The notes: a model not told the origin generated them from the sequence alone. A stretch of DNA of 43,365 nt from Wenzhouxiangella sediminis (GCF_003410055.1 NZ_QUZK01000045.1:1-43365); one strand, 5' to 3'; shown: positions 13,083 through 29,455, counted from the first letter of the stretch. Made by a program: numbers and translations.

Positions 13083-13111
13083 TTGACACCCCAATCCCAG
13101 CTGCCTAAACT
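13083..13111 (+). promoter_or_regulatory. Sigma70-type promoter of the polysaccharide locus
   Basis: A perfect -35 box TTGACA (13083-13088) and TAAACT (13106-13111) are separated by 17 bases, the optimal spacing. Transcription should start near 13118, giving a leader of about 310 bases before the first gene. A weaker second candidate, TTGAAC (13223-13228) and CACAAT (13246-13251), also 17 bases apart, overlaps the dyad at 13209-13234. No activator site was recognised. Confidence 0.7.
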
Positions 13112-14834: not shown

Positions 14835-16523
14835 GTGCCCAACCCGCACCACCACCCAACCGGCCACCAGCGCCCAGTCGAAGCCCCCGATGTGGACCTC
14901 GACCTAAGCCCCAGCCACCTCTGCGACCTGGAGCTGCTGACCAACGGCGCCTTCACCCCGCTGACGGGCTTCCTGAACCGGGCCGACTACGAATCCGTGC
15001 TGGCCGACATGCGCCTGGAAAACGGCGCCCTGTGGCCCATGCCGGTGATGCTCGACATCCCCGAGACCACCGCCACCCGCCTGGACGCCGGCCAGACCCT
15101 GGGCCTGCGCGACCGCGAGGGCGTGCTGCTGGCCACCCTGACCGTCGGCGACATCTGGCAGCCCGACCTGAGGGCCGAAGCCGATGCCGTGTTCGGCACC
15201 ACCGACAGCAACCACCCCGGCGTGGCCCGGCTGCTCGAGCGCACGCATTCCTACTACGTCGGCGGCAGGGTCCACCTGGTCCAGCCGCCCCTGCACTACG
15301 ACTTTCCGCACCTGCGCCACACCCCGGCGGAGCTGAAAGCCCTGTTCGAAAAACGCGGCTGGGAACGCGTCATCGCCTTCCAGACGCGCAACCCCATGCA
15401 CCGCGTCCACCAGGAGCTCACCTTCCGCGCCGCGCGCGAGATCGAGGCCAACCTGCTGATTCATCCGGTGGTGGGCCTGACCCAGCCCAACGACGTCAAC
15501 CACTACACCCGGGTCAGGTGCTACGAGCACATCCTCAAGCGCTACCCCGAGCAGACCACCGCCCTGTCGCTGCTCAACCTGGCCATGCGCATGGGCGGCC
15601 CCAGGGAAGCCCTGTGGCACGCGCTGATCCGCGCCAACCACGGCTGCACGCACTTCATCGTCGGCCGCGACCACGCCGGCCCGCGCAACCCGGCCACCGG
15701 CGAGGGCTACTACGGCCCCTACGACGCCCAGGAACTGATCACCGAGCACCGCGACGAGATCGGCATCGAGATGGTGCCCTTCCGCGAAATGAAGTACCTG
15801 GAAACCCGCGCCCAGTACGTCCCCGTCGACGAGATCGGCCCCGACGACCAGGTACGCGAGATCTCCGGCACCGAAGTGCGCCGCCGCCTGAGCGAAGGCC
15901 TGGACATCCCCGAGTGGTTCAGCTATCCGGAAGTCGTCGCCGAACTGCGCCGCACCCACCCGCCGCGCGCCCAACAGGGCTTTACCGTGTTCTTCACCGG
16001 CCTGTCGGGCTCGGGCAAGTCCACCCTGGCGAATGCATTGCAGGTCAAGCTGATGGAACTGGGCGGGCGCCAGATCACCCTGCTCGACGGCGATATCGTG
16101 AGAAAGAACCTCTCGAGCGAGCTGGGCTTCTCCAAGGAACACCGCAACCTCAACATCCTGCGCATCGGCTTCGTCGCCAGCGAAATCACCAAAAACGGCG
16201 GCATCGCCCTGTGCGCCCCCATCGCGCCCTACACCGCAACGAGACGCGAAGTGCGCGAAATGATCGAACCCCACGGCGGCTTCATCGAAGTCCATGTGGC
16301 CACGCCCCTGGAAGTGTGCGAACAAAGAGACCGAAAAGGCCTCTACAAGAAGGCAAGACAAGGCATCATCAAGGAATTCACCGGCATCTCCGACCCCTAC
16401 GAGGAACCGGAAAACCCCGAAATGCAAATCGACACCACCGAAATGCACCCGGAAAAAGCCGTCCAGCAAATCCTCCTCAAACTGGAACACCTGGGCTACC
16501 TCGCTGTCGATACAAACCCATAA
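14835..16523 (+). CDS. PAPS synthase: ATP sulfurylase - APS kinase fusion
   Basis: Makes adenylyl sulfate from sulfate and ATP and phosphorylates it to PAPS, the donor used by sulfotransferases. It has 562 residues. The ATP sulfurylase domain (about 1-380) has [10 protein letters not shown], the [12 protein letters not shown] motif (QxRNxxHxxH) and [10 protein letters not shown]. The APS kinase domain (about 385-560) has the P-loop GLSGSGKST and the [10 protein letters not shown] and [10 protein letters not shown] segments. The start is GTG with no visible ribosome site, six bases after a heptamer array; GTG 14892 is a shorter alternative. No cysDN, cysH or cysI is nearby, and three sulfotransferases lie downstream, so it most likely feeds polysaccharide sulfation rather than cysteine synthesis. 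Confidence 0.95.
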
Positions 16524-16525
16524 CT

Positions 16526-16619
16526 CGTAGGATGCGTGAAGCGCAGCGCAACGCATCACCCCGGCAAAGCCGCAGGCGAGCCGAAGAGAAGTTCCTGAAA
16601 CCTGAAACCTGAAACCTTC
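16526..16619. repeat. GTAGGATGCGT...ACGCATC unit with CCTGAAA array
   Basis: GATGCGT (about 16533) and ACGCATC (about 16552) form a hairpin around GAAGCGCAGCGCA. CCCCGGCAAAGCCGCAGGCGAGC (two parts) and three CCTGAAA units follow. It sits between the PAPS synthase and the UDP-xylose synthase gene. Nearly the same arrangement recurs at 20138-20234. Confidence 0.8.
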
Positions 16620-16636
16620 GCCCACCGGCGACACCA

Positions 16637-17665
16637 ATGAACCAAAAAACCAAAACACCAAAAAACCAAAACACGCGCTCGCAACGAACGTACTCGTTGC
16701 GGAAGCAAATGGTCGTCACCGGCGGCGCCGGCTTCCTCGGCAGCCACCTCATCGACAAGCTGATCGCCCAGGGCCACGACGTGCTGTGCATCGACAACCT
16801 GTTCACCGGCACCAAGGACAACATCCGGCACCTGCACAACCACCCGCATTTCGAGTTCAAGCGCCACGACGTGACCTTTCCGCTCTACGTCGAAGGCGAC
16901 GAAATCTGGAACCTGGCCTGCCCCGCCGCGCCCGTGCACTACCAGCACGACCCGGTGCAAACCACCAAGACCTCGGTCCACGGCGCCATCAACATGCTGG
17001 GCCTGGCCAAGCGCCTGAAATGCCCGATCTTCCAGGCCTCCACCTCGGAAGTCTACGGCGACCCCACCCAGCACCCGCAAACCGAGGACTACTGGGGCAA
17101 CGTCAACCCCATCGGGCCCCGATCCACCTACGACGAAGGCAAACGCTGCGCCGAGACCCTGTTCTTCGACTACCACCGAGAACACGGCCTGGCCATCAAG
17201 GTCGCCAGAATCTTCAACACCTACGGCCCGCGCATGCACCCCAACGACGGCCGCGTGGTCTCCAACTTCATCATGCAGGCCCTCCAGGGCGAAGACATCA
17301 CCATCTACGGCGAAGGCAGCCAGACCCGCTCCTTCTGCTACGTCGACGACCTCATCGACGGCTTCATCAAGCTCATGAACAGCCCCGCGGACATCACCGG
17401 CCCCATCAACCTGGGCAACCCCAGCGAAATCACCATCCGCGAACTGGCCGAAACCGTCATCGACCTGACAGGCTCCAAGAGCAAACTCGTCCAGGCCCCA
17501 CTCCCGGCCGACGACCCCGTCCGCCGCTGCCCCGACATCACCCGGGCCAGGGAAAACCTGGACTGGCAACCCAAAACCGACCTCAAAACCGGCCTACGCC
17601 ACACCATCGAATACTTCGACAAACTCCTGGCCGACAGCCAGGCGGCGGCCGGACCGGCGGCTTGA
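16637..17665 (+). CDS. UDP-glucuronate decarboxylase (UDP-xylose synthase)
   Basis: Converts UDP-glucuronate to UDP-xylose; NAD-dependent short-chain dehydrogenase/epimerase fold. The frame has 342 residues. [12 protein letters not shown] is the NAD site. [20 protein letters not shown] (20 residues) with the following NMLGLAKR is diagnostic of UXS, and STYDEGKR holds the Tyr-x3-Lys pair. The first about 14 codons are an ACCAAAACACCAAAAA repeat. A native start could be TTG 16697 or ATG 16709, the latter with GGAAG four bases upstream, giving about 318 residues, the usual bacterial size; the start is therefore uncertain. The UDP-glucuronate-forming dehydrogenase is not in the window. Confidence 0.93.
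16641..16674. repeat. ACCAAAACACCAAAAA repeat at the start of the UXS gene
   Basis: A-rich tandem of ACCAAAA, ACACC and AAAAACC units. The same repeat occurs at 19041-19079 and 19805-19840, each time inside or at the start of an epimerase-family gene and read in frame as TKTPKNQ-like peptide. Confidence 0.8.
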
Positions 17666-17675
17666 GCGAAAACCG

Positions 17676-17713
17676 TTCCAGACAATAGAACAGTCGTGCT
17701 AGAATTTAGAACA
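17676..17713 (+). promoter_or_regulatory. Promoter and paired direct repeats before the wHTH-nucleotidyltransferase
   Basis: TTCCAG (17676-17681) and TAGAAT (17700-17705) are 18 bases apart. TAGAACA occurs at 17686-17692 and again at 17707-17713, 21 bases apart, two helical turns, flanking the -10 box. This is the layout expected if the winged-helix protein encoded next represses itself. Confidence 0.5.
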
Positions 17714-17715
17714 CT

Positions 17716-18324
17716 ATGGATCCGGCAGCATCAGTACTGTTCGGCAAGACACGACAAGCCGTGCTCTCGGCCCTGTTCGAGCGGGGCGCCGAGGGCATCT
17801 ACGTGCGCGAACTCGAGCGGCAGACCGGCATCAGCACTGGCGCTCTGCACCATGAGCTTCGCCAACTCATGCAGGCCGACCTGGTGGAAAAAAACAAGGA
17901 CGGCAATCGCGTCGTCTACCGCATCAATGACTCGCACCCGATCTACACCGAGCTGCGAGGGATCATCGAGAAGACATGCGGCGTCCCCGCACAAGTCCGA
18001 GCGGCACTCGGCGACCTGGAATCCGACATCGAGTTCGCGGCCATATTCGGTTCCACGGCCCGCGGTACAAGCCACGCCGGCAGCGATATCGACCTGCTTC
18101 TGGTGGGCGAATTGACCCAATCGAAGCTGATCGACCGCATCCAGCCCCTTGAAGAGCGGCTCCACCGAGAAATCGGCTTCCGCCTGTACACCCGGGACGA
18201 ATTCAACAAACGGCGACAATCAGACCCGTTCCTCACCCGAGTACTGTCCAGACCGCTCATCCCGATCCTCGGAACAATCGATGACGGCCAGGAAGAGGCA
18301 ATTTCAGGAGCAAGTCTCCATTGA
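17716..18324 (+). CDS. Winged-helix nucleotidyltransferase (MNT-type) protein
   Basis: It has 202 residues. The N-terminus (about 1-75) is an ArsR-like winged helix (VLSALFERGAEGIYVRELE, GISTGALHHELRQLMQADLV). The second half is a minimal nucleotidyltransferase with GSTARGTSHAGSDIDLLLVG, an exact GSx10DxD active site. Such fusions are seen with HEPN partners or as self-regulating toxin-antitoxin parts; no HEPN gene follows here. A HicB-like gene follows closely instead. The gene has its own promoter-like sequence with TAGAACA repeats, so it looks like a self-contained cargo unit within the sugar genes. Confidence 0.8.
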   Translation: MDPAASVLFGKTRQAVLSALFERGAEGIYVRELERQTGISTGALHHELRQLMQADLVEKNKDGNRVVYRINDSHPIYTELRGIIEKTCGVPAQVRAALGDLESDIEFAAIFGSTARGTSHAGSDIDLLLVGELTQSKLIDRIQPLEERLHREIGFRLYTRDEFNKRRQSDPFLTRVLSRPLIPILGTIDDGQEEAISGASLH

Positions 18325-18347
18325 AAATGGAGAGGTCGGACGTAGCC

Positions 18348-18557
18348 ATGAAATACGCGATTGTCGTTGAATCTGCACTCGGCAACTACTCCGCCTACGT
18401 CCCTGATCTCCCGGGGTGCGTCGCCACAGGAAAGACCGTGGAAGACGTTGAACAGCAAATTCGCGAAGCAATCGAGTTCCATCTGGAAGGCATGCGAGAA
18501 GACGGCGACCCCATCCCGCCTCCGAGCAGCCACGTCGAGTATGTGGACGTCGCCTGA
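18348..18557 (+). CDS. HicB-family antitoxin-like protein, no HicA partner
   Basis: It has 69 residues from ATG 18348, which gives the canonical MKYAIVVESALGNYSAYVPD followed by LPGCVATGKTVEDVEQQI. This is the partially degraded RNase H fold of HicB. TTG 18321 overlaps the upstream stop as TTGA and is a possible longer start. It lacks the C-terminal DNA-binding domain of many HicB proteins, and there is no HicA gene on either side. It may be an orphan, or the antitoxin of the preceding nucleotidyltransferase. An attC-like sequence begins at its stop. Confidence 0.8.
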   Translation: MKYAIVVESALGNYSAYVPDLPGCVATGKTVEDVEQQIREAIEFHLEGMREDGDPIPPPSSHVEYVDVA

Positions 18558-18620
18558 CAACTCGCTCAACGCGGACGCCGGCGAAGCCGGCGCCGGTTAG
18601 CTCCAGTTCAAACATTTCGA
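18548..18620 (+). other. attC-like imperfect inverted repeat
   Basis: CCTGACAACTCGCTCAACG and, after a GACGCCGGCGAAGCCGGCGCC hairpin (two arms), GGTTAGCTCCAGTTCAAAC form an imperfect dyad with extrahelical bases. This is the form of integron cassette recombination sites. The outer core sites deviate from RYYYAAC and GTTRRRY (CCTGAC, GTTCAAA), so it may be degenerate or a chance resemblance. No integrase or second attC was found. Confidence 0.35.
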
Positions 18621-18640
18621 CACCTGGGTTCAATTGGTGC

Positions 18641-19012
18641 ATGACCCCCATAACACGCTTTCAGGACATCCAGGCTTGGCAGGAAGCCCGAACACTGGTC
18701 TCCCAAATCTACAAGGCCAGCCAGTCAGGCCAGCTCGCAAGAGATTTCGGCCTCAAGGACCAGATACAACGATCGGGCGTATCCATCATGGCCAACATCG
18801 CCGAGGGATTTGGCCGTCGAGGGCGCCAGGAATTCGTTCACTTCCTCAAAATCGCGAGGGGCTCGTGCTCCGAAGTCCAGTCACACCTCTACGTTGCACT
18901 GGACAACGGTTCCATTGACGAACTGACGTTCCAGGACCTGCAAGCCCGCTCCGAAACAGTAGGCAGAAAGATCTCAGCCTTCATCGCACACCTAAAACGA
19001 ACCACCAGTTGA
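18641..19012 (+). CDS. Four-helix-bundle protein (S23/IVP family)
   Basis: It has 123 residues, all helical. The motifs FQDIQAWQEARTLVSQIYKA, LKDQIQRSGVSIMANIAEGF and ARGSCSEVQSHL are the family signature of the four-helix-bundle proteins first seen inside 23S rRNA intervening sequences (TIGR02436 type). The family is common next to nucleotide-sugar genes and as stand-alone genes, with no established function. There is no rRNA here, so it is not an intervening sequence. It lies 20 bases before the UDP-glucuronate epimerase gene. Confidence 0.88.
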   Translation: MTPITRFQDIQAWQEARTLVSQIYKASQSGQLARDFGLKDQIQRSGVSIMANIAEGFGRRGRQEFVHFLKIARGSCSEVQSHLYVALDNGSIDELTFQDLQARSETVGRKISAFIAHLKRTTS

Positions 19013-19031
19013 AGGCGACAGGCACAGACCA

Positions 19032-20111
19032 ATGAACAGCCACCCACCAAAAAACCAAAACACCAAAGCACCAAAAAACGGGCCGATCCTAGTAACGGGA
19101 TCGGCGGGCTTCATAGGCTCCCACGTAACCCGAAGACTCCTAGCCGACGGACATGCCGTGGTCGGCCTAGACAACCTAAACGAATACTACGACCCCAAAC
19201 TAAAGTCGGACCGCCTGGCCCTCTTCGCCAAGCACCAGAACTACAAACACGTCACCGGCGACCTGGCCGACCGAGACCTAATCGAAGCCGTCTTCGACAA
19301 ACACCAACCGAAGCGAGTTGTCCACCTGGCCGCCCAGGCCGGCGTGCGCTACGCCGCCGAAAACCCGCACGTCTACGTCAGCTCGAATGTCACCGGCACT
19401 CTCCACATCCTGGAAGGCTGCCGCCAAACCGGCGTGGAACACCTGGTCTTCGCCTCGACCAGCTCCGTCTACGGCGCCAACACCAAAATGCCGTTTTCCG
19501 AGCACGACAGCACCGAACACCCGCTAACCCTGTACGCGGCCACCAAGAAAGCCAACGAGATGATGGCCCACTCCTACGCCCATCTCTACAACATCCCCAG
19601 CACGGGCCTGAGATTCTTCACCGTCTACGGCCCCTGGGGCAGACCCGACATGGCCCTGTTCCTGTTCACCAAGGCCATCCTGGCCGGCGAACCGATCAAG
19701 GTCTTCAACCACGGCAAACACAGAAGAAGCTTCACTTATGTGGATGACATCGTAGAAGGCATAGTCAGAATCCTCAAAAAACCGCCAAAGCCGACCGAAG
19801 ACTCAACCAAAACACCAAAAAACCAAAGCACCAAAACACCCGACCCTGCGTCGAGCCGGGTCGCCCCCTACCGCATCTACAACATCGGCAACGAAGAGTC
19901 TGTAGAGCTAATGCGCTACATCGAGGTGCTGGAAAAGGAGCTGGGCAAAAAGGCAAAAATGGAAATGCTCCCCCTACAACCCGGCGACGTCCCCGACACC
20001 GAATCGGACGTCACCAACCTGACCGAGGCCATCAACTACAGCCCCCAGGTCAACGTAGAAGAAGGCGTAGCCAACTTCGTCAAGTGGTACCGCGACTACT
20101 ACAAGGCTTAA
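19032..20111 (+). CDS. UDP-glucuronate 4-epimerase-type NAD-dependent epimerase with repeat inserts
   Basis: Likely interconverts UDP-glucuronate and UDP-galacturonate. It has 359 residues. GSAGFIGSH (about 24-32) is the NAD site, SSVYGANTKMPFSE and YAATKKANE the catalytic region (Tyr-x3-Lys), and RFFTVYGPWGRPDMALFLF the family hallmark. The protein is longer than usual because an ACCAAAACACC-type repeat encodes the N-terminal PPKNQNTKAPKN (about 5-16) and a loop with STKTPKNQSTKTP (about 258-270), just before the conserved PDPASS-APYRIYNIGN stretch. No internal start exists that would avoid the N-terminal copy. Both insertions keep the frame and fall outside the catalytic core. Confidence 0.92.
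   Translation: MNSHPPKNQNTKAPKNGPILVTGSAGFIGSHVTRRLLADGHAVVGLDNLNEYYDPKLKSDRLALFAKHQNYKHVTGDLADRDLIEAVFDKHQPKRVVHLAAQAGVRYAAENPHVYVSSNVTGTLHILEGCRQTGVEHLVFASTSSVYGANTKMPFSEHDSTEHPLTLYAATKKANEMMAHSYAHLYNIPSTGLRFFTVYGPWGRPDMALFLFTKAILAGEPIKVFNHGKHRRSFTYVDDIVEGIVRILKKPPKPTEDSTKTPKNQSTKTPDPASSRVAPYRIYNIGNEESVELMRYIEVLEKELGKKAKMEMLPLQPGDVPDTESDVTNLTEAINYSPQVNVEEGVANFVKWYRDYYKA
19041..19079. repeat. ACCAAAACACCAAAGCACC repeat coding the epimerase N-terminus
   Basis: Second copy of the A-rich repeat, read as PPKNQNTKAPKN. Confidence 0.75.
19805..19840. repeat. Same A-rich repeat inserted in frame inside the epimerase
   Basis: Third copy, ACCAAAACACCAAAAAACC followed by AAAGCACCAAAACACC, read as TKTPKNQSTKTP in a loop that is variable among homologues. 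Confidence 0.8.
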
Positions 20112-20137
20112 AGACCGAAAAAGCTCCGCAGCCCCGT

Positions 20138-20234
20138 AGGATGCGTGGAGCAAAGCGCAACGCATCACCCCGGCAACGCCGCAGGCGAGCCGAACTTTGT
20201 TTTCCTGAAACCTGAAACCTGAACCCTGCAACCT
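20138..20234. repeat. GTAGGATGCGT...ACGCATC unit with CCTGAAA array
   Basis: Near copy of the arrangement at 16526-16619: hairpin GATGCGT/ACGCATC, CCCCGGCAACGCCGCAGGCGAGC (two parts), then CCTGAAA units ending about 10 bases before the gmd start. Confidence 0.8.
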
Positions 20235-20244
20235 TGTAAATTTA

Positions 20245-21354
20245 ATGAAAAAAGCACTACTCACAGGAGTCACCGGCCAGGACGGCGCCTACCTAACCGA
20301 ACTGTTGCTGGAAAAGGGCTACCAGGTCCACGGCATCAAGCGGCGAGCCTCGCAGTTCAACACCCACCGCATCGACCACCTCTACCAGGATCCGCACGAG
20401 CCCGATCCGCGGCTGGTGCTGCACTACGGCGACCTGACCGACTCCACCAACCTGATCCGCGTCGTCCAGGAAGTCCAGCCCGACGAAATCTACAACCTGG
20501 GCGCCCAGAGTCACGTGGCGGTGTCCTTCGAAAGCCCCGAATACACCGCCAACAGCGACGCCATGGGCACGCTGCGGCTGCTCGAGGCCATCCGCATCCT
20601 GGGGCTGGAAGACGAGGTGCGCTTTTACCAGGCCTCCACCTCGGAGATGTTCGGCAAGGTGCAGGAAACGCCTCAGCGCGAGACCACGCCCTTCTACCCG
20701 CGCTCGCCCTACGGCGCGGCCAAGCTCTATGGGCACTGGATCACCGTCAACTACCGCGAGTCCTACGGCCTGTACGCCTGCAGCGGCATCCTGTTCAACC
20801 ACGAATCGCCCCGGCGCGGCGAGACCTTCGTCACTCGCAAGATCACCCGCGCCCTGGCGCGCATCTACTTGGGGCTCGACGACTGCCTGTACCTGGGCAA
20901 CCTCGACGCCCTGCGCGACTGGGGCCACGCCCGCGACTACGTGGAAGCCCAGTGGCTGATGCTGCAGCAAGACCAGCCCGAGGACTTCGTGATCGCCACG
21001 GGCGAGCAGCATTCGGTGCGCGATTTCGTCAACGCCGCCGCCGCCCGGCTGGAGATTCAGATCGACTGGCGCGGCAGCGGCCCGGAAGAGCACGGCGTGC
21101 TCGCCAGCGCGCCCGAGGACTGCGCCACCAAGCCGGGCACCCGCATCGTCGCTGTGGACCCGCGCTACTTCCGCCCCGCCGAGGTCGACACCCTGCTCGG
21201 CGACCCGAGCAAGGCAAAGGAAAAGCTGGGCTGGCAACCGAAGACCACATTCGACGAACTGGTCTCGGAAATGGTGGAAAAGGACCTCGAACGCGCCCGG
21301 CGCGATGCATTGATCGAAAGCGAAGGCTACCGCGCTTACCGCTTCAAGGAATGA
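20245..21354 (+). CDS. gmd: GDP-mannose 4,6-dehydratase
   Basis: Converts GDP-mannose to GDP-4-keto-6-deoxymannose, the first step to GDP-L-fucose. It has 369 residues, the standard length. [10 protein letters not shown] is the NADP site; [16 protein letters not shown] and [12 protein letters not shown] carry the catalytic Thr/Ser, Glu and Tyr-x3-Lys; [15 protein letters not shown] is the Gmd signature. It is followed directly by fcl (stop 3 bases before the fcl start). It needs GDP-mannose; manA is at 37221 but no manB/manC is in the window. Confidence 0.97.
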
Positions 21355-21356
21355 CC

Positions 21357-22298
21357 ATGGACCAAAACAGCCGCATCTTCGTCGCCGGCGGCCGCGGCAT
21401 GGTCGGCAGCGCCATCTGCCGCGCCCTGGCCGCCAAGGGCTTCGACAACGTTCTCGCGCCCACGCGCGACGAGCTGGACCTGGGCAATCAGGCCGCCGTG
21501 GCCGAGTGGTTTGCCCAAAACCGGCCCGAATACGTCTTCCTGGCCGCCGCCAAGGTCGGTGGCATCCACGCCAACGACACATACCCGGCCGAGTTCATCC
21601 ATGACAACCTGGTCATCGAGACCAACGTGATCCACTCGGCCTGGCAGAACGACACGAAAAAGCTGTGCTTTCTCGGCTCCTCGTGCATCTACCCCAAACA
21701 CGCCCAGCAACCGATGAACGAAGATCAGCTGCTCACCGGCCCGCTGGAACCGACCAACGAGTTGTACGCCATCGCCAAGATCGCTGGCATCAAGCTGTGC
21801 CAGGCGTACCGGCGCCAGTACGGCTTCGACGCCATTAGCCTGATGCCCACCAACCTATACGGCCCCGGCGACAACTTCCACCCGGAAAACTCCCACGTGA
21901 TCCCCGGCCTGATCCGGCGGTTTCACGAGGCCAAACAAGAAGGCCGCGAAAAAGTCGTCATTTGGGGCACCGGCACGCCGAAAAGAGAATTCCTCCACGT
22001 CGACGACCTGGCCGATGCCTGCGTTTACCTCACGCAGAATTACTCCGACGAACAGTTCGTCAACATCGGCGTCGGCGAGGACACCTCCATACTGGAGCTC
22101 GCCAAACTGATCGCCAAGGTCGTCGGCTACGAGGGCAAAATCGAAACTGACCCGAGCAAGCCGGACGGTACGCCGCGCAAGTTAATGGATGTATCAAGAG
22201 CGCACGAGCTGGGTTGGCGCGCAGCGACCGGTCTAGAGGAGGGCCTTAAAGAAACCTACGAGTGGTTCCTGGAAAATCAGAAGGCAGCGCGGCTTTAG
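21357..22298 (+). CDS. fcl: GDP-L-fucose synthase
   Basis: Epimerase-reductase that turns the Gmd product into GDP-L-fucose with NADPH. It has 313 residues. GGRGMVGSA is the NADP site, [15 protein letters not shown] and [10 protein letters not shown] (Tyr-x3-Lys) the active site, and [19 protein letters not shown] a strong family match. ATG 21357 has AAGGA six bases upstream; ATG 21351 overlaps the gmd stop but would have no spacing to a ribosome site. The large open frame upstream is a shadow of gmd. The IS481-type element starts about 25 bases after the stop. Confidence 0.96.
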
Positions 22299-22323
22299 GA
22301 GTTACGGAAGGTTCATCCCCAAA

Positions 22324-23560
22324 ATGAAGTAGTTGCGTATTTATCCGACAGTCGCCCCTGCTGAGAGCTAGTCAGGGGCGACCACCGGGGTCTCCGGTAG
22401 ACTCTATTGTATCCCGACAACGCATAGACAAGGAGAACACCCGATGACCATCGTTTCACAGAGCACCAAGAGGAAGCTTTCTTTGCTTCAACTGGCCCAG
22501 GAACTCGGCAACGGCTCGAAAGCCTGCCAGTCACGGACTACCACCGAGACACCTTCGACGAGGTCCAAAAGGCCTTCAAGGTTGGCGGTGTCGCCGCCCT
22601 GGTCGAGCAGCGCCGCGGACCCAGGAATCCGCACCCAAACCGGGTGCCGGAAGCGACCGAGAAGCGCATTCTTGAGTTCTGCCTGGCCAAGCCGACCTAC
22701 GGCGCCCAGCGGGTTGCCAACGACCTGCGGCTGGAGGGCGTGGACGTCAGCCCTTCCGGCGTGCGCGGCGTCTGGCTGCGTCACGATCTGGAGACTCGAT
22801 ACAAGCGCCTGCTGAGGCTGGAAGCCGAGGCCCAGGAGCAGACCTTCGTCCTGTCCGACGAGCAGATCCGGCTGCTGGAACGCCATTCTCCGGAGTTCCG
22901 GATGCGCCACGTCGAAACCACAGCGCCCGGCGAGCTACTCAACCAGGACACGTTCTACTGGGGCCAGCTTAAGGGCGTGGGCAAGATCTACGTCCAAGTC
23001 GTGATCGATGCCTTCTGTTCCCTCGCCTTCGCCAAGGTTTACACATCGAAGATGCCGATCACCGCGGCCGATTTGATCTACGACCGCGTGCTGCCGTTCT
23101 ACGATGCACTCGGTGTCACCATCCAGGCCGTCCTGACCGACAACGGCCGGGAGTTCTGCGGGAAGCCCGAGGGCCATCCCCACGAGCTGCTGCTGGCCCT
23201 GCACGACATCGAGCACCGCACCACCAAAGTCAGGTCGCCGCGAACCAATGGTTTTGTAGAGAGGATGAACCGCACGCTGCTTGACGAGCACTTCCGCATC
23301 AAAGGCCGAGAAAACTGGTACGAATCAGCCGACCAAATCCAGGCCGATCTCGACGAGTTCCTGGCCTTCTACAACCTCAAGCGCACCCACCAGGGCTATC
23401 GATTGAAGGGCCGAACACCGGCTCAGGCACTGCGCGATGCGTTGGGCCGAAAGAAGTTGCCGCCGATCGTTCCCAAGGAACCTACAACCGAGGTTGCTGA
23501 GGCGGCATAATCGGAGCTATCGCAGACCCCGAGTGTCGGGTAATTACTCAACTTGTACAG
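22324..23560. mobile_element. IS481-type insertion sequence with terminal repeats and target duplication
   Basis: Imperfect terminal inverted repeats of 26 bases, 22325-22350 and 23534-23559, match at 20 positions; their inner ends both read CCGACA when oriented. The element is about 1.24 kb, usual for IS481. The direct repeat CCCCAAA (22317-22323 and 23561-23567; the next base is also A on both sides) flanks it as a target duplication. Removing it restores a short fcl-to-wzx spacer, so it landed inside the operon. It carries one transposase frame, frameshifted near 22530. Confidence 0.85.
22444..23510 (+). pseudogene. IS481-family transposase, frameshifted
   Basis: The start MTIVSQSTKRKLSLLQLAQE with GGAGAA upstream is the usual N-terminus of this family. 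After SKAC the frame is lost near 22526-22532: a single missing base in TGCCAGTCACGGAC explains it, since the +1 frame continues as DYHRDTFDEVQKAF, GGVAALVEQRRGP. From 22644 the rest is intact: helix-turn-helix-like region, then the DDE integrase core with VVIDAFCSLAF, LTDNGREFCG and a late Glu in NGFVERMNRTLLDEHF. Family members are normally a single frame, so this is most simply a broken copy; programmed frameshifting is less likely because no slippery run is seen. Confidence 0.85.
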
Positions 23561-23574
23561 CCCCAAAACCCCGA

Positions 23575-24942
23575 ATGAACCACTCAATCAAAGCCGACAC
23601 GCTAATTCAGTTGCCTGGTAAAGATAGATTCCTTGCACGCAAATTCATTCAGGCCCTCGGCCTGCGCATTTGTGTCCTCTTGGTTGGCTTCGCGACATCC
23701 GTGCTCCTAGCACGAATCCTGGGCCCAACTGAATTTGGCTACTATCTCTTTGCTTTTTCCTTGATGACACTGATTGCTATTCCTGTTCAAGCCGGAATGC
23801 CAATGCTTATCACCAAGAAGCTCCCCCAATATGATCATGGAGAGCAACACCCGCTGATAAAAGGTCTCTTGATACAGTGCGCCTTCCTGATCGTTATCTT
23901 TTCCGCCATCGCCATTGCTGGGATAAACACCTTCAACCTTTGGTGGTTCAGAACTTCAGGCGGCTATGAAGGCATGGAAGTCGTAGTCTGGGGTTCACTG
24001 CTTATACCGTTAATTGCTTTTGCGACGCTCTCAGGCGCCGCGATCCGCTCGCTACAAAGGCATTTCGTAGGACAGGCAGTAGAGACGGCTCTCCGCCAAG
24101 CCCTTCTGTTAGCCTTGATCGGCAGCCTTAGCATAATATTTAACAGCGCATTCTCGCTTGACGCCACGCAAGCAATGATTCTCCACATACTTGCAGGCTT
24201 GGCAACAGCGCTAATTGGCTGGCTCGCCCTTGCCCACACTTTCACCTTTGACTGGCACAAAGTATCAGTCCATTTCAAAACCCGACAATGGCTCAAAAAC
24301 CTGGCCCCACTTGCAGTCATCGCGGGTATGACAGTGATACTCGGAAAGACCGATATCATTATGCTCCGCATTTTAGCAGGAGCGGACGAGGTAGCCCACT
24401 ATTACGTTGCGGCTCAATTTGGAATGCTCGTTTTTATTTCCGCCCAAGGCGTACGTCTGGTTAATGGACCACTCCTTGCCCGCGAAGCGAAAACTGGCAA
24501 CCGCCCCTATATGCAACGGATATACAGCCAAGGAGCGCTGTTCGTATTTCTGACGACGATTCCAACGGCAATGATCCTCATTCTATTCGGACGCCCTATC
24601 ATCGAACTTATATTCGGCGCCCCATTCATTGCTGCCTATGCAGCAGTCATCGTTTTTTCAGTGGGATACATGCTGCAGGCCTTGTTTGGAACAACGGAAA
24701 TCATTCTCAAAATAATGGACCACGAGGCGACCATAGTGCGTGCGTTTGCGGTTGCGATTGTTGCCAACATACTCATCAACGCTATATTAATCCCACCCCT
24801 TGGGATATTCGGCGCGGCGCTCGCATCAATGACCGTCACCATCGCCTCGAAACTATATCTGTCACTGCAGATCTATAGAAAGATTGGTATCAGAGCATTC
24901 GCAATCATTCCGAGGGCGTCGCTTAGTGGGCCAGGCCAATGA
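23575..24942 (+). CDS. wzx: Wzx-type oligosaccharide flippase
   Basis: Would flip the undecaprenyl-linked repeat unit across the inner membrane. It has 455 residues with about 12-14 hydrophobic segments; the start FIQALGLRICVLLVGFATS followed by VLLARILGPTEFGYYLFAFS is typical of the polysaccharide-transporter (MATE-like) family. ATG 23575 begins the family-like N-terminus; the longer frame upstream runs through the IS. It opens the AT-richer block of the locus. Wzx proteins diverge strongly, so the sugar specificity cannot be read. It ends in ATGA overlap with the next gene. The symbol is given by role. Confidence 0.85.
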   Translation: MNHSIKADTLIQLPGKDRFLARKFIQALGLRICVLLVGFATSVLLARILGPTEFGYYLFAFSLMTLIAIPVQAGMPMLITKKLPQYDHGEQHPLIKGLLIQCAFLIVIFSAIAIAGINTFNLWWFRTSGGYEGMEVVVWGSLLIPLIAFATLSGAAIRSLQRHFVGQAVETALRQALLLALIGSLSIIFNSAFSLDATQAMILHILAGLATALIGWLALAHTFTFDWHKVSVHFKTRQWLKNLAPLAVIAGMTVILGKTDIIMLRILAGADEVAHYYVAAQFGMLVFISAQGVRLVNGPLLAREAKTGNRPYMQRIYSQGALFVFLTTIPTAMILILFGRPIIELIFGAPFIAAYAAVIVFSVGYMLQALFGTTEIILKIMDHEATIVRAFAVAIVANILINAILIPPLGIFGAALASMTVTIASKLYLSLQIYRKIGIRAFAIIPRASLSGPGQ

Positions 24943-26516
24943 CTATAGCATTCCATCAGCAAAGCCCAAATCCCCAACTGCCTACTTCAAAGGCCATTAA
25001 GGGTCAGAAATACCTTACAAACGCCGCGTTATCGACGTCATTAGTAGCGATTGTAACGGCATTTATTTGGCTTAGTGCAATAGAGAGCTCCTCGGCACTG
25101 GTGAACACGATGAATGCTTTAGTGCCACTATATTTCCTGCTATTCTTCTCTATTTTTGGCTATCACATTCTACGCACCGACGCGACGTTAATCTGGACTC
25201 CCATTTTCCTATTTCTCGCCTATACCGCGTTGTTCAAAGGGCTCGGCCCGCTTGTTTATGTCTTTGGTGATTCAGAAACAACAGCCGCCATTGAACATGG
25301 ATTGTGGGCTCGTACCGATGCTGAACAACTCCAAACCAATTTATTGAACTCTGTTGCAACCGCAGTCATTCTTTCAGTGATGGCGTTACTGCTGCGAACG
25401 CAATGGGCTCGGCGCATAGCCCTCGGGGAACCACGCAAACATATTTCGGACCGCAGCGTACCAATTGCAACTGTAGCTATCGTCTTCCTCTTGCTTGGCG
25501 CAATTATCCGCTACATATTTATTTTGCCGTATTCGTTTGGCATGACAGACTCTGTCCCGCCTGGATTAGCTATGACCTTTGGAAACCTGATTGATCTCGG
25601 GTTCGCGCTAATCGCTTACCTGGCAGCCACGCGTCGCGGTCGCTGGATGATCTTGTTCTGGATTCTTTTCCCACTACATGCAAGCACTCTCTTCCTCGAG
25701 TTCCGCAAATCTACCGTTGTTCTGGCTCTCCTACTTCCGGCCTTCACAGCCTTCCTTGCTCATGGAGACCGGAAGCGTCTTTCTGCCTGGTTAATTGCCA
25801 CGTTGATGATCTATTCTGCAATGACACCGATCGCCAATTACGGTCGCGCGGAGATCGTTGAGAGGGGTGGAAACAATGTGTATAGCGCTACGTTCGTTGA
25901 ACGTCTGGAGATCCTCCATCATGCGCTAACTCGAGACCGGGAAAGTATAATTAAAAACCGCGGGGGCGGGGAGCAGGCTAGCTGGCTGCGGCTTGACTAC
26001 TCTGGCCCGATGGCCTTTGCAATGAACTCTTATGATCGTAGCTATACTAACCCAACCATCAAGGATGGGCTATGGCGCCTTGTCCCACGCGCCGTGTGGC
26101 CGGACAAGCCCACGATATCTGGGCCGGGCCGGGACTTCTATCAACTTGTATCTGGTACGGATCGACAAGCGCGCGTCGGAATCACGTACTACGCAGATGC
26201 ATATTGGAACGGGGGATGGCCTATGGTAGTCGTAGTTTCGTGCCTGATTGGATTATTCTTTGCCATAGCAAGTGCGTACGCTTTGCGCTGGATTCGTACC
26301 AAGAACTTCGTGATGTTCCCCGCGATTCTCTTAGTCGCAGATTTCGCACTGCGCGGCCTCAATGGTTGGGTCCAGAATGGCTTTGCTCTAATCCCTTACC
26401 TGCTGGCCTATGCCCTTTTTATCCAAACGCTCCGTCTTTTCTATATTCACAAAGTCAAAAGAAACCTTGCTGCTGATAGGTTAAGCGTAGAACCGCATGC
26501 TAATCCCAGACCTTGA
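24939..26516 (+). CDS. Wzy-like integral membrane protein, putative polysaccharide polymerase
   Basis: It has 525 residues with about 11-12 membrane segments (for example AALSTSLVAIVTAFIWLSAI, YFLLFFSIFGYHIL, IPYLLAYALFIQTL). A large soluble loop around 300-420 contains Arg, Tyr and Trp residues (LWRLVPRAVWPDKPT, RQARVGITYYADAYWNGGWP). The last motif, with Y, D and W before a membrane helix, is seen in several O-antigen polymerase-type proteins. Sequence identity in this class is too low for a firm call; position after wzx and topology support polymerase. It is coupled to wzx by a four-base ATGA overlap and overlaps the next gene by 20 bases. Confidence 0.7.
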   Translation: MTIAFHQQSPNPQLPTSKAIKGQKYLTNAALSTSLVAIVTAFIWLSAIESSSALVNTMNALVPLYFLLFFSIFGYHILRTDATLIWTPIFLFLAYTALFKGLGPLVYVFGDSETTAAIEHGLWARTDAEQLQTNLLNSVATAVILSVMALLLRTQWARRIALGEPRKHISDRSVPIATVAIVFLLLGAIIRYIFILPYSFGMTDSVPPGLAMTFGNLIDLGFALIAYLAATRRGRWMILFWILFPLHASTLFLEFRKSTVVLALLLPAFTAFLAHGDRKRLSAWLIATLMIYSAMTPIANYGRAEIVERGGNNVYSATFVERLEILHHALTRDRESIIKNRGGGEQASWLRLDYSGPMAFAMNSYDRSYTNPTIKDGLWRLVPRAVWPDKPTISGPGRDFYQLVSGTDRQARVGITYYADAYWNGGWPMVVVVSCLIGLFFAIASAYALRWIRTKNFVMFPAILLVADFALRGLNGWVQNGFALIPYLLAYALFIQTLRLFYIHKVKRNLAADRLSVEPHANPRP

Positions 26517-27216
26517 ATGCGTCTTCGTGCATGTGCCAAAGACCGCTGGACAGAGTATCGAATCGGCTTTCCTGGAGTTTCTTGGCGAAACATGGTTGCA
26601 CCGCGAGCCTTACCTTCTATTCGAAAACACCAATCCAGAGATTGGCCCGCCTCGGATGGCTCACCTTACGTCACTCGAATATACGACCCTCGGCCATGTC
26701 GGCGCAAATGAGTGGGAGCGCTTTTTTAAGTTTGGCTTTGTACGCAACCCGTGGACAAGGCTAGTGTCTGAGTACCGTTTCCGCGCATCAAGAATTCGCT
26801 CGCCGTTCCGGGAGTGGGTACTAGAGCATTTTCCTCAACCAGGTTGGAGTGACATGTGGCGACATGTGATGCCACAAAGTGACTATCTCTTTGATAGTCG
26901 CGGTCGCCAAATGGTAGATTTCATTGGTCGCTTTGAGAATCTCTTAGAAGACTACGGGCTTTTACAGGAGCATTTGGGTGTCGCCCTTCCAAAATTAAGG
27001 AAAGTTAACGCCACCAACGAAATTGGCTTCATGGAGCGCGCGCGAACTCAAGGCTTGGCGCACGGAATTCGGGGTGCATTGTCCCGACGTTTGGCCAAAT
27101 CCCGCGTGAGGAGGCCAGCTGATTGGCGTACTTATTATGATAATGACACAAACGCGTTTGTTGAGCGCTTTTATGCTGAGGATATCGAACGGTTTGGGTA
27201 TTCGTTCGATAGCTGA
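26497..27216 (+). CDS. Carbohydrate sulfotransferase (sulfotransferase family 2 type)
   Basis: Likely transfers sulfate from PAPS to a sugar hydroxyl. It has 239 residues. The 5'-phosphosulfate loop is VHVPKTAGQSIES (about 11-23), with Lys15; the 3'-phosphate site is FVRNPWTRLVSEYRF (about 81-95), with Arg83 and Ser91. These are the two PAPS-binding motifs of the carbohydrate (HNK/chondroitin-like) sulfotransferases. The start ATG is within the end of the Wzy-like gene, 20 bases overlapping. It belongs to a different subfamily from the two further downstream. PAPS would come from the synthase at 14835. Confidence 0.9.
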   Translation: MLIPDLECVFVHVPKTAGQSIESAFLEFLGETWLHREPYLLFENTNPEIGPPRMAHLTSLEYTTLGHVGANEWERFFKFGFVRNPWTRLVSEYRFRASRIRSPFREWVLEHFPQPGWSDMWRHVMPQSDYLFDSRGRQMVDFIGRFENLLEDYGLLQEHLGVALPKLRKVNATNEIGFMERARTQGLAHGIRGALSRRLAKSRVRRPADWRTYYDNDTNAFVERFYAEDIERFGYSFDS

Positions 27217-27608
27217 CTAAATGGCAACGTAACTTTTCTCTCGGACACAGGTCATTATTGCCGTCTAGAACACAGCATAAATAGCAATGGGGTATAGCAT
27301 GTGGGATTATGTGATGCCGCGTATTCCTCCGAACCTGCGCACATTCCTATCCGGCGATAGATAACTCACGCTAAAAAATCGAAGGCACTGTTATTATTCG
27401 CAGAGGCTCCTATTAGAGATTGCTTGAAAAAGTGCTAGACCAACTTAGCATCAGGATAGACGCCCCTCGAAAGGTCAAGGTCACCTGTTTGGAGAACTAC
27501 TGCCTATACATTGTCCGAGGCAAATCTTGGGATTCAATGCCGGAAACTTGTCAGACGCAAAGCTGCTATGCCTTTCGTACACGTTTGTAGCCAACGACAA
27601 TCAGTAAA
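27217..27608. other. AT-richer spacer, no clear gene
   Basis: These 392 bases carry no supported gene. A 56-codon frame (27420-27590, TTG start, no ribosome site) reads LLEKVLDQLSIRIDAP... and is Cys-rich near its end; it may be chance or a decayed gene. TTGAAA (27424-27429) and TAGCAT (27446-27451), 16 bases apart, are a weak promoter candidate for the following sulfotransferases. It is the longest gap in this otherwise overlapping gene block and holds no composite repeat, unlike the flanks. Confidence 0.5.
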
Positions 27609-28544
27609 ATGACAGGGGATCCCGATGAAATGACAGAACCCGTCGACAGGCAACTCCCAAATTTTTTCCTAGTGGGCGCACCTAAATGTGGAACAACGTC
27701 GCTGGCGAGCTGGTTGAATGAGCACTCTGCCGTTTTTATGTGCAAGCCCAAGGAGCCGTTTTTCTTCAGCCGCGACATCCAGTCACCACGTGCTGCAGAA
27801 AGCTGGAGCGACTACAGGCGCCTTTTTAAAGGAGCGCAACCTGGCCACCTTGCAATCGGTGAGGCGTCGACTACATATCTTCGAAGCCAGGTAGCAGTGC
27901 CAGCCATTCTGGAGCGTGTGCCTTCTGCGCGATTTGTTGTTTGCGTACGAAACCCCGTGGAAATGGTATCTTCCGTTCACGGACAACTGATTCGAAGCGG
28001 GCGGGAGGATGTCTATGATCTACGCAAGGCTTGGAACCTACAAGGTGCCCGCCGTGCCGGCCAGGCCCTTCCCCCACTCACCACTGAGGTTGGGGATCTA
28101 CTCTACGGCGAGGTATGTGCTCTAGGTACACAGTTGAAGCGACTCTTAAAATATGTTGATCGTGCTCAAGTGCTGGTGCTTTTTCTCGATGATCTCCGGC
28201 AAAAGCCGGATCGAGTCTGGAGTACATTAACTTCATTTCTCGGTATCCCTCATGACGGACGTCAGACATTCTCGAAGAAGAATGAACGCAGGATTCCAAG
28301 GTCGATGAGGCTCACTCGGTTCGTTGCACTGGCCCACCGGACTAAGAACTGGCTAATGCCTAGACGCACCTTGGGAATTGGACCATGGCTGAGAGAAGCA
28401 CTCGTCCGCGCACCGAGTGAAAGTGAATTTTGTATTCCAGACGACCTTCGCCGCGAGTTGAGATTATTCTTCGAACCGGAAATCACAATGCTTGAGGATC
28501 TTACTGACAAGAATCTGTCGAGTTGGCGTCGAAACGACAAATGA
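27609..28544 (+). CDS. PAPS-dependent sulfotransferase
   Basis: It has 311 residues from ATG 27609; ATG 27630 (MTEPVDRQLPNFF) is an alternative, and neither has a strong ribosome site. The 5'-phosphosulfate loop is LVGAPKCGTTSLASWL (PKCGTTS at 25-31). The 3'-phosphate site is VVCVRNPVEMVSSVH (Arg114, Ser121). GEASTTYL and a KPKEPFFFSRD segment are typical of bacterial heparan-type sulfotransferases. It is clearly paralogous to the next gene (shared PKCGTTS, GEA-T-YL, VAVP-IL, RRIPRS), so the two arose by tandem duplication and then diverged. The acceptor is unknown. Confidence 0.9.
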   Translation: MTGDPDEMTEPVDRQLPNFFLVGAPKCGTTSLASWLNEHSAVFMCKPKEPFFFSRDIQSPRAAESWSDYRRLFKGAQPGHLAIGEASTTYLRSQVAVPAILERVPSARFVVCVRNPVEMVSSVHGQLIRSGREDVYDLRKAWNLQGARRAGQALPPLTTEVGDLLYGEVCALGTQLKRLLKYVDRAQVLVLFLDDLRQKPDRVWSTLTSFLGIPHDGRQTFSKKNERRIPRSMRLTRFVALAHRTKNWLMPRRTLGIGPWLREALVRAPSESEFCIPDDLRRELRLFFEPEITMLEDLTDKNLSSWRRNDK

Positions 28545-29455
28545 CCAAACCGAATTTCTTTATCCTCGGCGCACCGAAATGCGGAACGACTTCCGTGGCT
28601 ACATGGTTGTCGCAACACCCTGAAGCTTTTGTATCAAACCCAAAGGAGCCACGCTACTTTAATTCGGACTGGAAGCTGCCCTTCCGGATCTCGGATGAAG
28701 CCTCCTACGAACGACTTTTTGAAAGTGCAGCGGGGTACTCTGCCATCGGAGAAGCGACAACCGGATACCTCGTATCGGACGTCGCAGTGCCTCACATTTT
28801 GAAGTATCGTCCAGATGCCCACTTTGTAGTCTGCTTACGGAATCCGGTTGATCTCTTTTTTTCTCTCCACGCGCAACGTCTCAAAGAAGGAATGGAGTCG
28901 TTGGCTGATCCCAAATCCGCCTGGGATGCTCAGACTGAGCGCATTCAAGGCAAGGCCATCCCCGTCGGTTGTCCAGAGCCGAAGTTGCTCCATTACGACC
29001 GCTATTGTCGATTGGGGACGCAGATGGAGCGACTGCTCGAGCAGATTGAGCGCCCCCGCCTCCACGTTCTGTTTATCGAGGATCTAAATGATAACGCAAA
29101 CAGGGCTTATAGGCGGCTATGCACTTTTCTAGGCTTACAGCCCTATTCCCTACCCGAGTACAGACCGAGAAATCGCCGCAGCATTCCGAGATCTTTGCTA
29201 TTAGCGCAGCTATTGCGTGTATCTGGGGTTCTCAAAAGGCGAGTTGGACTTCCACCACTGGGCATAGGAGAGCGCATCCGAAATTTGAATCAAAGAGATT
29301 CAAGAATTGCAGTCGAGCCACGGTTCCGCAGTCTACTGGTTGAACACTTCTCCGACGAAGTTACACGCTTGGAACGGCTATTGTCGCGAGATCTTTCGCA
29401 TTGGCGCGAAGTCAGATCAGGTCCAGCTCTTCCTTATACTTCTCCTGATGAATGA
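28541..29455 (+). CDS. PAPS-dependent sulfotransferase, paralogue of the preceding gene
   Basis: It has 304 residues from ATG 28541, which overlaps the upstream stop as ATGA; the longer frame is rejected. FFILGAPKCGTTSVATWL (PKCGTTS at 12-18) binds the 5'-phosphosulfate, and VVCLRNPVDLFFSLH (Arg100, Ser108) the 3'-phosphate. The NPKEPRYFNSD and GEATTGYL segments parallel those of the preceding enzyme. Divergence after the PAPS-binding half suggests a different acceptor position. Tight coupling implies joint expression. Confidence 0.9.
   Translation: MTKPNFFILGAPKCGTTSVATWLSQHPEAFVSNPKEPRYFNSDWKLPFRISDEASYERLFESAAGYSAIGEATTGYLVSDVAVPHILKYRPDAHFVVCLRNPVDLFFSLHAQRLKEGMESLADPKSAWDAQTERIQGKAIPVGCPEPKLLHYDRYCRLGTQMERLLEQIERPRLHVLFIEDLNDNANRAYRRLCTFLGLQPYSLPEYRPRNRRSIPRSLLLAQLLRVSGVLKRRVGLPPLGIGERIRNLNQRDSRIAVEPRFRSLLVEHFSDEVTRLERLLSRDLSHWREVRSGPALPYTSPDE

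Follow-up and report, generated by a model that had tools for sequence, protein, structure and literature searches.

A fused PAPS synthase and three predicted sulfotransferases in a polysaccharide operon of Wenzhouxiangella sediminis, with sulfate activation apparently uncoupled from reduction

Sulfated polysaccharides of bacteria are still called scarce beyond cyanobacteria and some marine bacteria (accessible text of PMC8205485 and PMC13125312). Sulfated capsules with genes for 3'-phosphoadenosine 5'-phosphosulfate (PAPS) in the locus are nonetheless already published. According to the available portions of the two papers, Vibrio sp. KMM 8419 has a sulfated capsule whose structure was solved by nuclear magnetic resonance, with PAPS genes and sulfotransferases among the nucleotide-sugar and glycosyltransferase genes of its capsule locus and a JUMPstart element mentioned upstream of wzx (PMC11641403). 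Cobetia marina KMM 1449 has a sulfated capsule of solved rhamnose/mannose structure, and its capsule region holds PAPS genes (cysN/cysC, cysD, cysQ and a sulfate permease) together with sulfotransferases (PMC11766843). Here we describe a locus of Wenzhouxiangella sediminis that resembles both, in which a fused ATP sulfurylase-adenosine 5'-phosphosulfate (APS) kinase, hereafter Sat-APSK, shares an operon-like run with three predicted sulfotransferases and with sugar genes. It lies in a stretch of 43,365 nucleotides (NZ_QUZK01000045.1; the window), which makes up the whole of contig C22. The draft genome measures 3.5 Mb in 54 contigs, with completeness estimated at 99.8%. Unlike the window, the Vibrio locus as described uses second copies of cysC, cysN and cysD, no fused Sat-APSK, and Kps-type ABC-transporter capsule export (PMC11641403), and the Cobetia region a CysNC+CysD set, an ABC transporter and a rhamnose/mannose polymer (PMC11766843).

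Other described systems share parts of this arrangement. The synechan (xss) cluster of Synechocystis 6803 likewise serves an extracellular polysaccharide and encodes two sulfotransferases, which fall into distinct subfamilies; its host is a cyanobacterium, and the main text, in its accessible version, does not contain the terms PAPS, adenylyl or phosphosulfate (PMC8205485). The wps-1 locus of Actinoplanes missouriensis is of Wzx/Wzy type, and its two sulfotransferases belong to different families; it is adjoined by AMIS_7390, a member of the sulfate adenylyltransferase/APS kinase family whose deletion causes a severe sporangium defect. Unlike the window, as far as the accessible text goes, it places AMIS_7390 under different transcriptional control, belongs to an actinomycete and has a putative sulfated product (PMC13390465). 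In the open-licence literature we found no report that places a fused Sat-APSK in an operon of Wzx type or that describes sulfate activation without reduction in the family of the window genome. A first-pass annotation, made by a model from the sequence, had called bacterial sulfated polysaccharides with a dedicated PAPS supply inside the operon little described; this is true in part only, as the CysDNC-type loci of Vibrio KMM 8419 and Cobetia marina already represent the kind. What apparently sets this locus apart from published ones is the fused enzyme, the Wzx-type setting, the RfaH-ops head and an activation uncoupled from reduction.

We think it likely that the operon supplies PAPS and sulfates a surface polysaccharide of fucose/xylose/uronate type, sulfation of the polymer being what its gene content predicts. 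Gene calls were judged against the curated cut-offs of Pfam and NCBIfam profiles, with matches to solved structures given in bits (Table 1). At the head of the metabolic genes, the sequence leaves no ambiguity about the claimed fusion of ATP sulfurylase and APS kinase at 14835-16523. The protein reaches 917 bits against NF004040 (bifunctional sulfate adenylyltransferase/adenylylsulfate kinase; cut-off 669), matches PF14306 (145 bits), PF01747 (282) and PF01583 (210), and holds both domains, Sat then APSK, within one frame. The sulfurylase motif QxRNPxHxxH (HxxH) and the kinase P-loop GLSGSGKST are intact, and the residues of both are mostly invariant in an alignment of 20 sequences. Against a bifunctional enzyme, the top solved matches by score, 1i2d (635 bits) and 1m8p (632), are deposited as ATP sulfurylase; we take them to be fungal enzymes with a regulatory kinase-like domain. 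That fungal domain has no P-loop, and because the P-loop is intact here we favour the bifunctional reading, with predicted PAPS production, over a fungal-type regulatory one. The next solved matches, 2gks (567 bits) and 3cr8 (533), are bacterial bifunctional enzymes that, like the window protein, join ATP sulfurylase and APS kinase in a single chain; they presumably belong to the sulfur metabolism of Aquifex and Thiobacillus and not to polysaccharide loci.

The three enzymes with PAPS-binding motifs that had been reported at 26497, 27609 and 28541 hold up as members of two Pfam families. Each passes a curated Pfam cut-off, and NCBIfam profiles match none of the three. Across 30 homologues of the PF13469 type, K26 is lysine in 24 and arginine in 6, R114 is present in all 30, and S122 and E49 are each kept in 29; across 18 homologues of the PF03567 type, K15, S20, H56, R83 and S91 each occur in all 18. 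We take the conserved K and R/S residues to be the 5'-phosphosulfate-binding (5'-PSB) and 3'-phosphate-binding (3'-PB) motifs for PAPS. Sulfotransferases 2 and 3 are neighbours with 41% identity. Given the 8 PF13469 genes (11 places) in the 3.5 Mb of this genome, the Poisson P of meeting two or more within any given 28 kb is ~0.002.

A carbohydrate acceptor is predicted for each sulfotransferase, and which enzyme modifies which sugar is something we can only infer. To our knowledge, the known acceptors of PF03567 enzymes are carbohydrates. The best solved match of sulfotransferase 2 is 3rnl (109 bits), followed by a weak likeness to heparan sulfate 3-O-sulfotransferase 5 (E 1.3e-5), and sulfotransferase 3 is its paralogue. 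For sulfotransferase 1, no solved relative was detectable in the structure-sequence search, and a single-sequence structure prediction was too poor for use (mean predicted local distance difference test, pLDDT, 36.6). All three genes are placed between the candidate wzy and glycosyltransferase genes. These likenesses and this placement make it unlikely that the acceptor is instead a lipid, a small molecule, a protein or an O-antigen rather than a secreted polymer; an O-antigen would, besides, still count as a sulfated surface polysaccharide. What speaks for such an acceptor is the breadth of PF13469, from whose sequences the acceptor is not readable, and a precedent in Bacteroides: there, as in the window, putative PAPS biosynthesis genes (BT_0411-0416) stand beside a sulfotransferase, yet the cluster acts on cholesterol, and the accessible text describes no polysaccharide genes (PMC9417993).

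The PAPS synthase and the sulfotransferases had been placed in one operon, and the layout agrees. The same-strand run with its sugar genes spans ~13.4-37.2 kb, about 24 kb, and so exceeds the interval 14835-29455 originally proposed; with the exception of ManA, a single strand is used all the way from MarR_EPS up to and including the gene for the WecA-like enzyme. Between 23575 and 37187, 10 of 12 gene junctions overlap or measure at most 18 bp, the other two being 121 and 392 bp. Among the companion enzymes that had been named, Wzx, Gmd/Fcl and the UDP-xylose synthase are borne out, the Wzy-like protein is recognised by position and predicted helices only, and UDP-galacturonate is a guess from the epimerase at 19032-20111. 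The top match of that epimerase, 5u4q, is deposited as a dTDP-glucose 4,6-dehydratase, and none of the NCBIfam models listed reaches its cut-off; it is perhaps a UDP-GlcA/GalA (glucuronate/galacturonate) 4-epimerase. All NCBIfam models reached by the UDP-glucuronate decarboxylase score under their cut-offs, as do, by far, the Wzx/HfsF models for the flippase. The candidate Wzy shows long helices in a low-confidence single-sequence model (mean pLDDT 46.6) too poor for use. Content, order and relatives of the genes nevertheless support, at gene level, the sulfated fucose-, xylose- and uronate-containing surface polysaccharide that the first-pass annotation predicted.

We propose the following route. 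A transcript beginning upstream of 13423 would carry ops, where RfaH would join the polymerase and let the long operon be read. The first metabolic gene would turn sulfate and ATP into PAPS; Gmd/Fcl, the UDP-xylose synthase and the epimerase would provide GDP-fucose, UDP-xylose and perhaps a uronate donor, with UDP-glucuronate supplied through the UDP-glucose-dehydrogenase-type gene that neighbours CysD-CysNC on contig C42. A lipid-linked repeat would be begun by the WecA-like enzyme, lengthened by the glycosyltransferases and decorated by the three sulfotransferases, the acetyltransferase and the methyltransferase, after which Wzx would flip it and the adjoining membrane protein might polymerise it. 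The by-product 3'-phosphoadenosine 5'-phosphate would be removed by CysQ, encoded beside GalU.

Such a route presupposes a working cassette, and several features could be read as signs of a decaying or inactive acquisition: the insertion-sequence (IS) IS3 orfs at 22444-23510 between fcl and wzx, the toxin-antitoxin-like accessory genes that break the run at 17716-19012, a drop in GC content, the 392-bp gap ahead of sulfotransferase 2, and an aldo/keto reductase that matches half its profile in its best stretch. We give decay little probability, as the pathway's open reading frames (ORFs) are open, the IS insertion falls between genes, and both the PAPS synthase and the sulfotransferases have kept their motifs intact, catalytic in the former and PAPS-binding in the latter.

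The rest of the genome bears on where PAPS is spent. We used PF01077 as the marker of sulfite reductase and PF01507 as that of CysD and of CysH (PAPS/APS reductase), the latter two split by match span (~680 versus 516 nt) with a BLAST check in some loci only; weak PF01507 matches (such as G029:C77, 47 bits) were left outside both classes. Neither profile matches the window contig, in line with the earlier statement that no cysDN, cysH or cysI lies nearby. Over the whole window genome, PF01507 matches CysD and a single other gene, TilS-like on visual inspection, and no PAPS/APS reductase, and PF01077, positive in 11 of 14 control genomes, has no match. Whether another cysD/cysN/cysC set exists was a check that the first-pass annotation had left to be made: CysD and CysNC, the latter with a second APS kinase, stand at the end of contig C42, and Sat-APSK is therefore not the sole sulfate-activating enzyme of the genome. 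The nucleotide-sugar dehydrogenase next to them has UDP-glucose 6-dehydrogenase TuaD as its best model (481 bits, cut-off 700), with the broader family passing. CysQ (314 bits, cut-off 229) adjoins GalU (352 bits), and SulP-type genes are present. We considered CysDNC as the supply for cysteine synthesis and rejected this for the window genome, since no CysH or sulfite reductase match was found and the set thus does not have the appearance of a cysteine pathway. For the same reason, PAPS from both Sat-APSK and CysD-CysNC is probably spent on sulfation only.

Relatives extend this pattern. In our set of 121 related genomes, PF01077 is positive in 64. Within the window genome's own family (f1; 43 genomes) it is found in 14 and missing from 29, and 22 of these 29 keep CysD. 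A filter for completeness of 90% or more and contamination of no more than 5% (rounded values) keeps 25 family genomes; 16 of them are without PF01077, and of these 15 have CysD and all 16 a PF13469 match. Nine hand-chosen CysDNC loci of relatives have GalU adjacent or near (3), CysQ (1), a WecA-like gene (4) or none of these (1, G026). Where sulfite reductase and CysH are present, as in G018, G027 and G028, those two genes adjoin each other, distant from CysDNC or on another contig. Because of these gene neighbours, this separation and its retention without PF01077, CysDNC behaves like a sulfation gene set in the family.

The window and two relatives, G034 and G041, share the order RfaH-type gene, ops, MarR_EPS, Sat-APSK. 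The element GGCGGTAGCGTG, which we take to be ops, the RfaH recruitment site, is the only window match with at most one mismatch (0.31 expected). Exact copies among 231 loci occur at the window's own locus (L016), twice in G034 (L070), and at two loci of G041 (L072 and L073), the L073 copy standing ahead of a UDP-glucose-dehydrogenase-like gene further down. Against TIGR01955 (cut-off 144.5), the RfaH counterparts score 145.8 bits in G034, 159.5 in G041 and 146.1 in G010, and the MarR_EPS counterparts of G034 and G041 score 156.1 and 155.1 bits against TIGR04176. From this arrangement we infer that RfaH controls the window operon. A scan of the window for TTGACA-type promoters gave 3 sites against 2.1 in shuffles, which is not significant, and a terminator scan gave no excess over shuffles.

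Downstream of this head, composition changes. GC content is 65.5% in Sat-APSK and 65.0% in the left flank, and 50-52% in the genes from Wzx to the first family 4 glycosyltransferase (GT4). Eleven (CCTGAAA)n arrays, intergenic and on either strand, lie at window positions 3679, 6448, 7123, 9500, 9640, 13042, 14764, 39371, 40950, 42102 and 43231, with zero between 14829 and 39370; other short arrays (~8 bp) are present at 16.6-19.8 kb. Uniform placement gives P ~1e-4 for the heptamer-free block; this null is weak, given intergenic arrays and a block densely filled with genes. Such arrays recall the short tandem heptamers of cyanobacteria. The GC contrast and the array distribution suggest a foreign sugar cassette behind a resident Sat-APSK head. 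The cassettes that follow Sat-APSK in G034 and G041 hold different sugar genes and other sulfotransferases, namely three in G034 (PF00685/PF13469, PF03567 and PF00685) and one found in G041, ~15 kb downstream, each over a Pfam cut-off.

The Sat-APSKs closest to the window's, from G010, G011, G027, G034 and G041, form with it a single six-member clade (Shimodaira-Hasegawa-like approximate likelihood ratio test, SH-aLRT, 100; quick tree, n = 109) and are 79-87% identical to it. Those of G031, G032, G033 and G036, from the same family, fall outside. Sugar or sulfotransferase genes surround four of the six. In G010, Sat-APSK stands beside one epimerase in the order RfaH-GlmS-SatAPSK-epimerase, GlmS lying between RfaH and Sat-APSK there as in the window; the G011 contig is too short. 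In G027, ~20 kb hold Sat-APSK, glycosyltransferase-like genes (by eye, weak BLAST), CysD, CysNC and a WecA-like gene, a locus other than the window's.

Taken together with the family-wide pattern, these data lead us to a broader picture that we offer tentatively, as possible rather than probable. In the window genome and much of its family, activation of sulfate would be wholly uncoupled from its reduction, and sulfate would enter only for surface-glycan esters, through CysDNC and, in some members, a laterally moving Sat-APSK as well, and in the window's lineage the latter would be a fixed donor heading an RfaH-controlled slot for exchangeable cassettes with their own sulfotransferases.

How general the link is was gauged from 28 loci of relatives and from named Sat-APSK loci, of which the best 80 out of 586 confirmed stretches were taken (24 of the 80 ending early at contig ends), using models built from window proteins; these overlook distant sulfotransferases, such as a G027-locus gene that reaches 19.6 bits in Pfam, under its cut-off. 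A sulfotransferase lies within ~11 kb of Sat-APSK at 5 of the 80 and 4 of the 28, and on these counts we rejected a habitual pairing of Sat-APSK with sulfotransferases. The majority of the 80 have alphaproteobacterial names and no such link, and at least two polysaccharide genes were found at 4 of the 80. The link does recur, as a minority. At four of the five linked named loci (L089, L095, L121 and L154) the sulfotransferases are all over a Pfam cut-off. In L095, from a member of the Planctomycetota, there are two of them, accompanied by a Wzx (103 bits) and by a UXS-like short-chain dehydrogenase/reductase (SDR) that shares 26% identity with the window's. Also among the linked loci, L052 and L055 are ~1000-residue proteins, and the L135 gene lies at the extreme edge of its stretch.

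Several findings weigh against the picture of a sulfation-dedicated head and cassette. With the genome in draft, CysH or sulfite reductase could sit in a gap between contigs. Within the Sat-APSK clade, PF01077 is found in G027 and G041 and not in the other four, so that uncoupling is not tied to this Sat-APSK as such. At least one of the 29 family genomes without PF01077, G010, has a PAPS reductase, located in a polysaccharide locus, and PAPS may therefore serve a further use there. No sulfotransferase lies within ~11 kb of Sat-APSK at 75 of 80 named and 24 of 28 relatives' loci; the fusion alone thus does not imply sulfation. The G010 Sat-APSK site has no sulfotransferase in the 60 kb read and no ops better than chance nearby, and no ops was found in the stretch searched near the G027 Sat-APSK. 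In the window itself, the candidate Wzy has no Pfam or NCBIfam match, and a scan confined to proteins of the window showed none of the polysaccharide co-polymerase or outer-membrane polysaccharide export (PCP/OPX) type.

The scarcity of linked loci and the sulfite reductases of G027 and G041 would also fit a different role, in which Sat-APSK is a general cellular source of PAPS or APS for ordinary sulfur assimilation, stands at the operon head by chance and feeds a common pool on which the sulfotransferases draw. The other Sat-APSK type, that of G031, G032, G033 and G036, indeed occurs in genomes with sulfite reductase, although G037, similar by identity and 88% complete, shows none. We judge this role improbable for the window enzyme. 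Its genome has no PAPS/APS reductase or sulfite reductase match, and assimilation by that route therefore cannot be the enzyme's task; a second activation set is present; and the RfaH-ops-MarR_EPS-Sat-APSK head recurs in G034 and G041.

Dedicated supply of PAPS to a surface glycan remains our preferred reading. Its strongest new points are the RfaH-ops-MarR_EPS head that the window has in common with two relatives and a sulfate reduction that is apparently absent; its weakest parts are the predicted polymer and acceptors, the candidate Wzy and the export genes. The genes cysD, cysN and cysC are usually read as cysteine-synthesis genes; here they are kept together with a fused PAPS synthase, without a recognised reductive step and beside sugar genes. 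If this holds true, the annotation of such sulfate-activation genes would change, and activation without reduction, combined with sulfotransferases, could serve as a genomic marker for new sulfated polymers. The operon also offers a ready-made set of bacterial sulfotransferases of two families.

Table 1 Features of the window, with positions counted from its first nucleotide (TPR, tetratricopeptide repeat; HTH, helix-turn-helix; GT2, family 2 glycosyltransferase)
Feature	Position	Strand	Evidence
RfaH-type transcription antiterminator	6606..7118	+	TIGR01955 139.4 bits, just under cut-off 144.5
GlmS (glucosamine-6-phosphate synthase), flank	7437..9269	+	SIS 190 bits, GATase domains
GT2 glycosyltransferase with TPRs, flank	11753..12853	+	PF00535 42 bits
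Promoter-like site TTGACA-17-TAAACT	13083..13111	+	weak
ops element GGCGGTAGCGTG	13423..13434	+	exact 12-base match
EPS-associated MarR-family regulator, start on ops element	13432..13767	+	TIGR04176 MarR_EPS 148.9 bits, cut-off 88
Uncharacterised ORF	14091..14606	+	no Pfam or NCBIfam match
PAPS synthase, fused ATP sulfurylase-APS kinase	14835..16523	+	Pfam, NCBIfam, motifs, solved structures
UDP-glucuronate decarboxylase (UDP-xylose synthase)	16697..17665	+	397 bits to UDP-glucuronate decarboxylase 1, 2b69/4gll
HTH-nucleotidyltransferase protein (accessory)	17716..18324	+	PF01909 34.5 bits
HicB-like antitoxin-type protein (accessory)	18321..18557	+	PF15919 51 bits
23S rRNA-intervening-sequence-type protein (accessory)	18641..19012	+	PF05635 121 bits
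NDP-sugar epimerase, uronate-type SDR	19032..20111	+	427 bits to 5u4q, then 6zl6/6zla
Gmd	20245..21354	+	TIGR01472 587 bits, cut-off 415
Fcl, GDP-L-fucose synthase	21351..22298	+	NF047922 528 bits, cut-off 500
IS3-type insertion, orfA/orfB, between Fcl and Wzx	22444..23510	+	rve_3 44 bits and sequence reading
Wzx-type flippase	23575..24942	+	PF01943 43 bits, cut-off 28
Multi-helix membrane protein, candidate Wzy polymerase	24939..26516	+	position between wzx and sulfotransferases, predicted helices
Sulfotransferase 1, PF03567	26497..27216	+	60.1 bits, cut-off 22
Sulfotransferase 2, PF13469/PF00685	27609..28544	+	PF13469 39.7 bits
Sulfotransferase 3, PF13469/PF00685	28541..29455 (frame 28523-29455, ATG at 28541)	+	PF13469 46.5 bits
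GT4 glycosyltransferase	29448..30479 (likely start ATG 29448)	+	PF00534 66 bits
GT4 glycosyltransferase	30476..31642	+	PF00534 100 bits
WcaF-type O-acetyltransferase	31658..32245	+	NF007797 171 bits, under cut-off 192; Hexapep 34 bits, cut-off 27
FkbM-type methyltransferase	32158..32943	+	TIGR01444 91 bits, cut-off 37.7
Aldo/keto reductase	32907..33770	+	PF00248 94 bits, best stretch spans positions 1-151 of 291 only
GMC-type oxidoreductase	33789..35384	+	PF05199 79 bits
GT2 glycosyltransferase	35506..36423	+	PF00535 48 bits
GT2 glycosyltransferase, final gene of run	36420..37187	+	PF00535 89 bits
ManA, mannose-6-phosphate isomerase	37221..38291	-	TIGR00218 129 bits, cut-off 116
WecA-like initiating sugar-phosphate transferase	38310..39371	+	PF00953 117 bits; TIGR02380 251 bits, under cut-off 326

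Within the run, the accessory genes at 17716-19012 separate the two UDP-sugar genes. Genes like the 23S rRNA-intervening-sequence-type member also occur in G034, G018 and G010: close to Sat-APSK in the first, flanked by CysD and CysNC in the second and next to CysNC in the third. The aldo/keto reductase and GMC oxidoreductase (32907-35384) may produce an unusual oxidised sugar. In the left flank, the minus strand encodes a two-component-propeller/Y_Y_Y protein with a GGDEF domain at 326-3382, a possible cyclic di-GMP input, and a 79% identical gene adjoins the G010 locus; also on the minus strand, at 9739-10923, is a collagen-like triple-helix repeat protein (87 bits) with GC-rich tandem repeats.

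PAPS reductases turned up in two polysaccharide settings. The G010 gene (238 bits, cut-off 154) lies in L232 (G010:C22, 89-16700) with CysD, a second, shorter CysD-like frame, CysNC, a WecA-like gene and glycosyltransferase-like genes. In L233 (G074:C27, 1-3820), four genes stand in a row: one like UDP-sulfoquinovose synthase (260 bits, cut-off 575; it leaves the stretch), one for a PAPS reductase (260 bits, cut-off 154), one for a sulfotransferase and one resembling Wzx (22% identity). The reductase may provide sulfite for a sulfonated sugar in this polysaccharide locus.

Sulfotransferase domains are found elsewhere in the window genome too. At C7:114686 and C33:43638 they form part of longer proteins, whose frames of 518 and 680 aa look TPR-like on inspection, and similar long frames are frequent in the relatives' list. 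A further sugar locus at C42:82000-88900 (L047) combines two sulfotransferase genes with a gene of Wzx type, WecG and an initiating sugar transferase, and the genome may therefore make more than one sulfated glycan.

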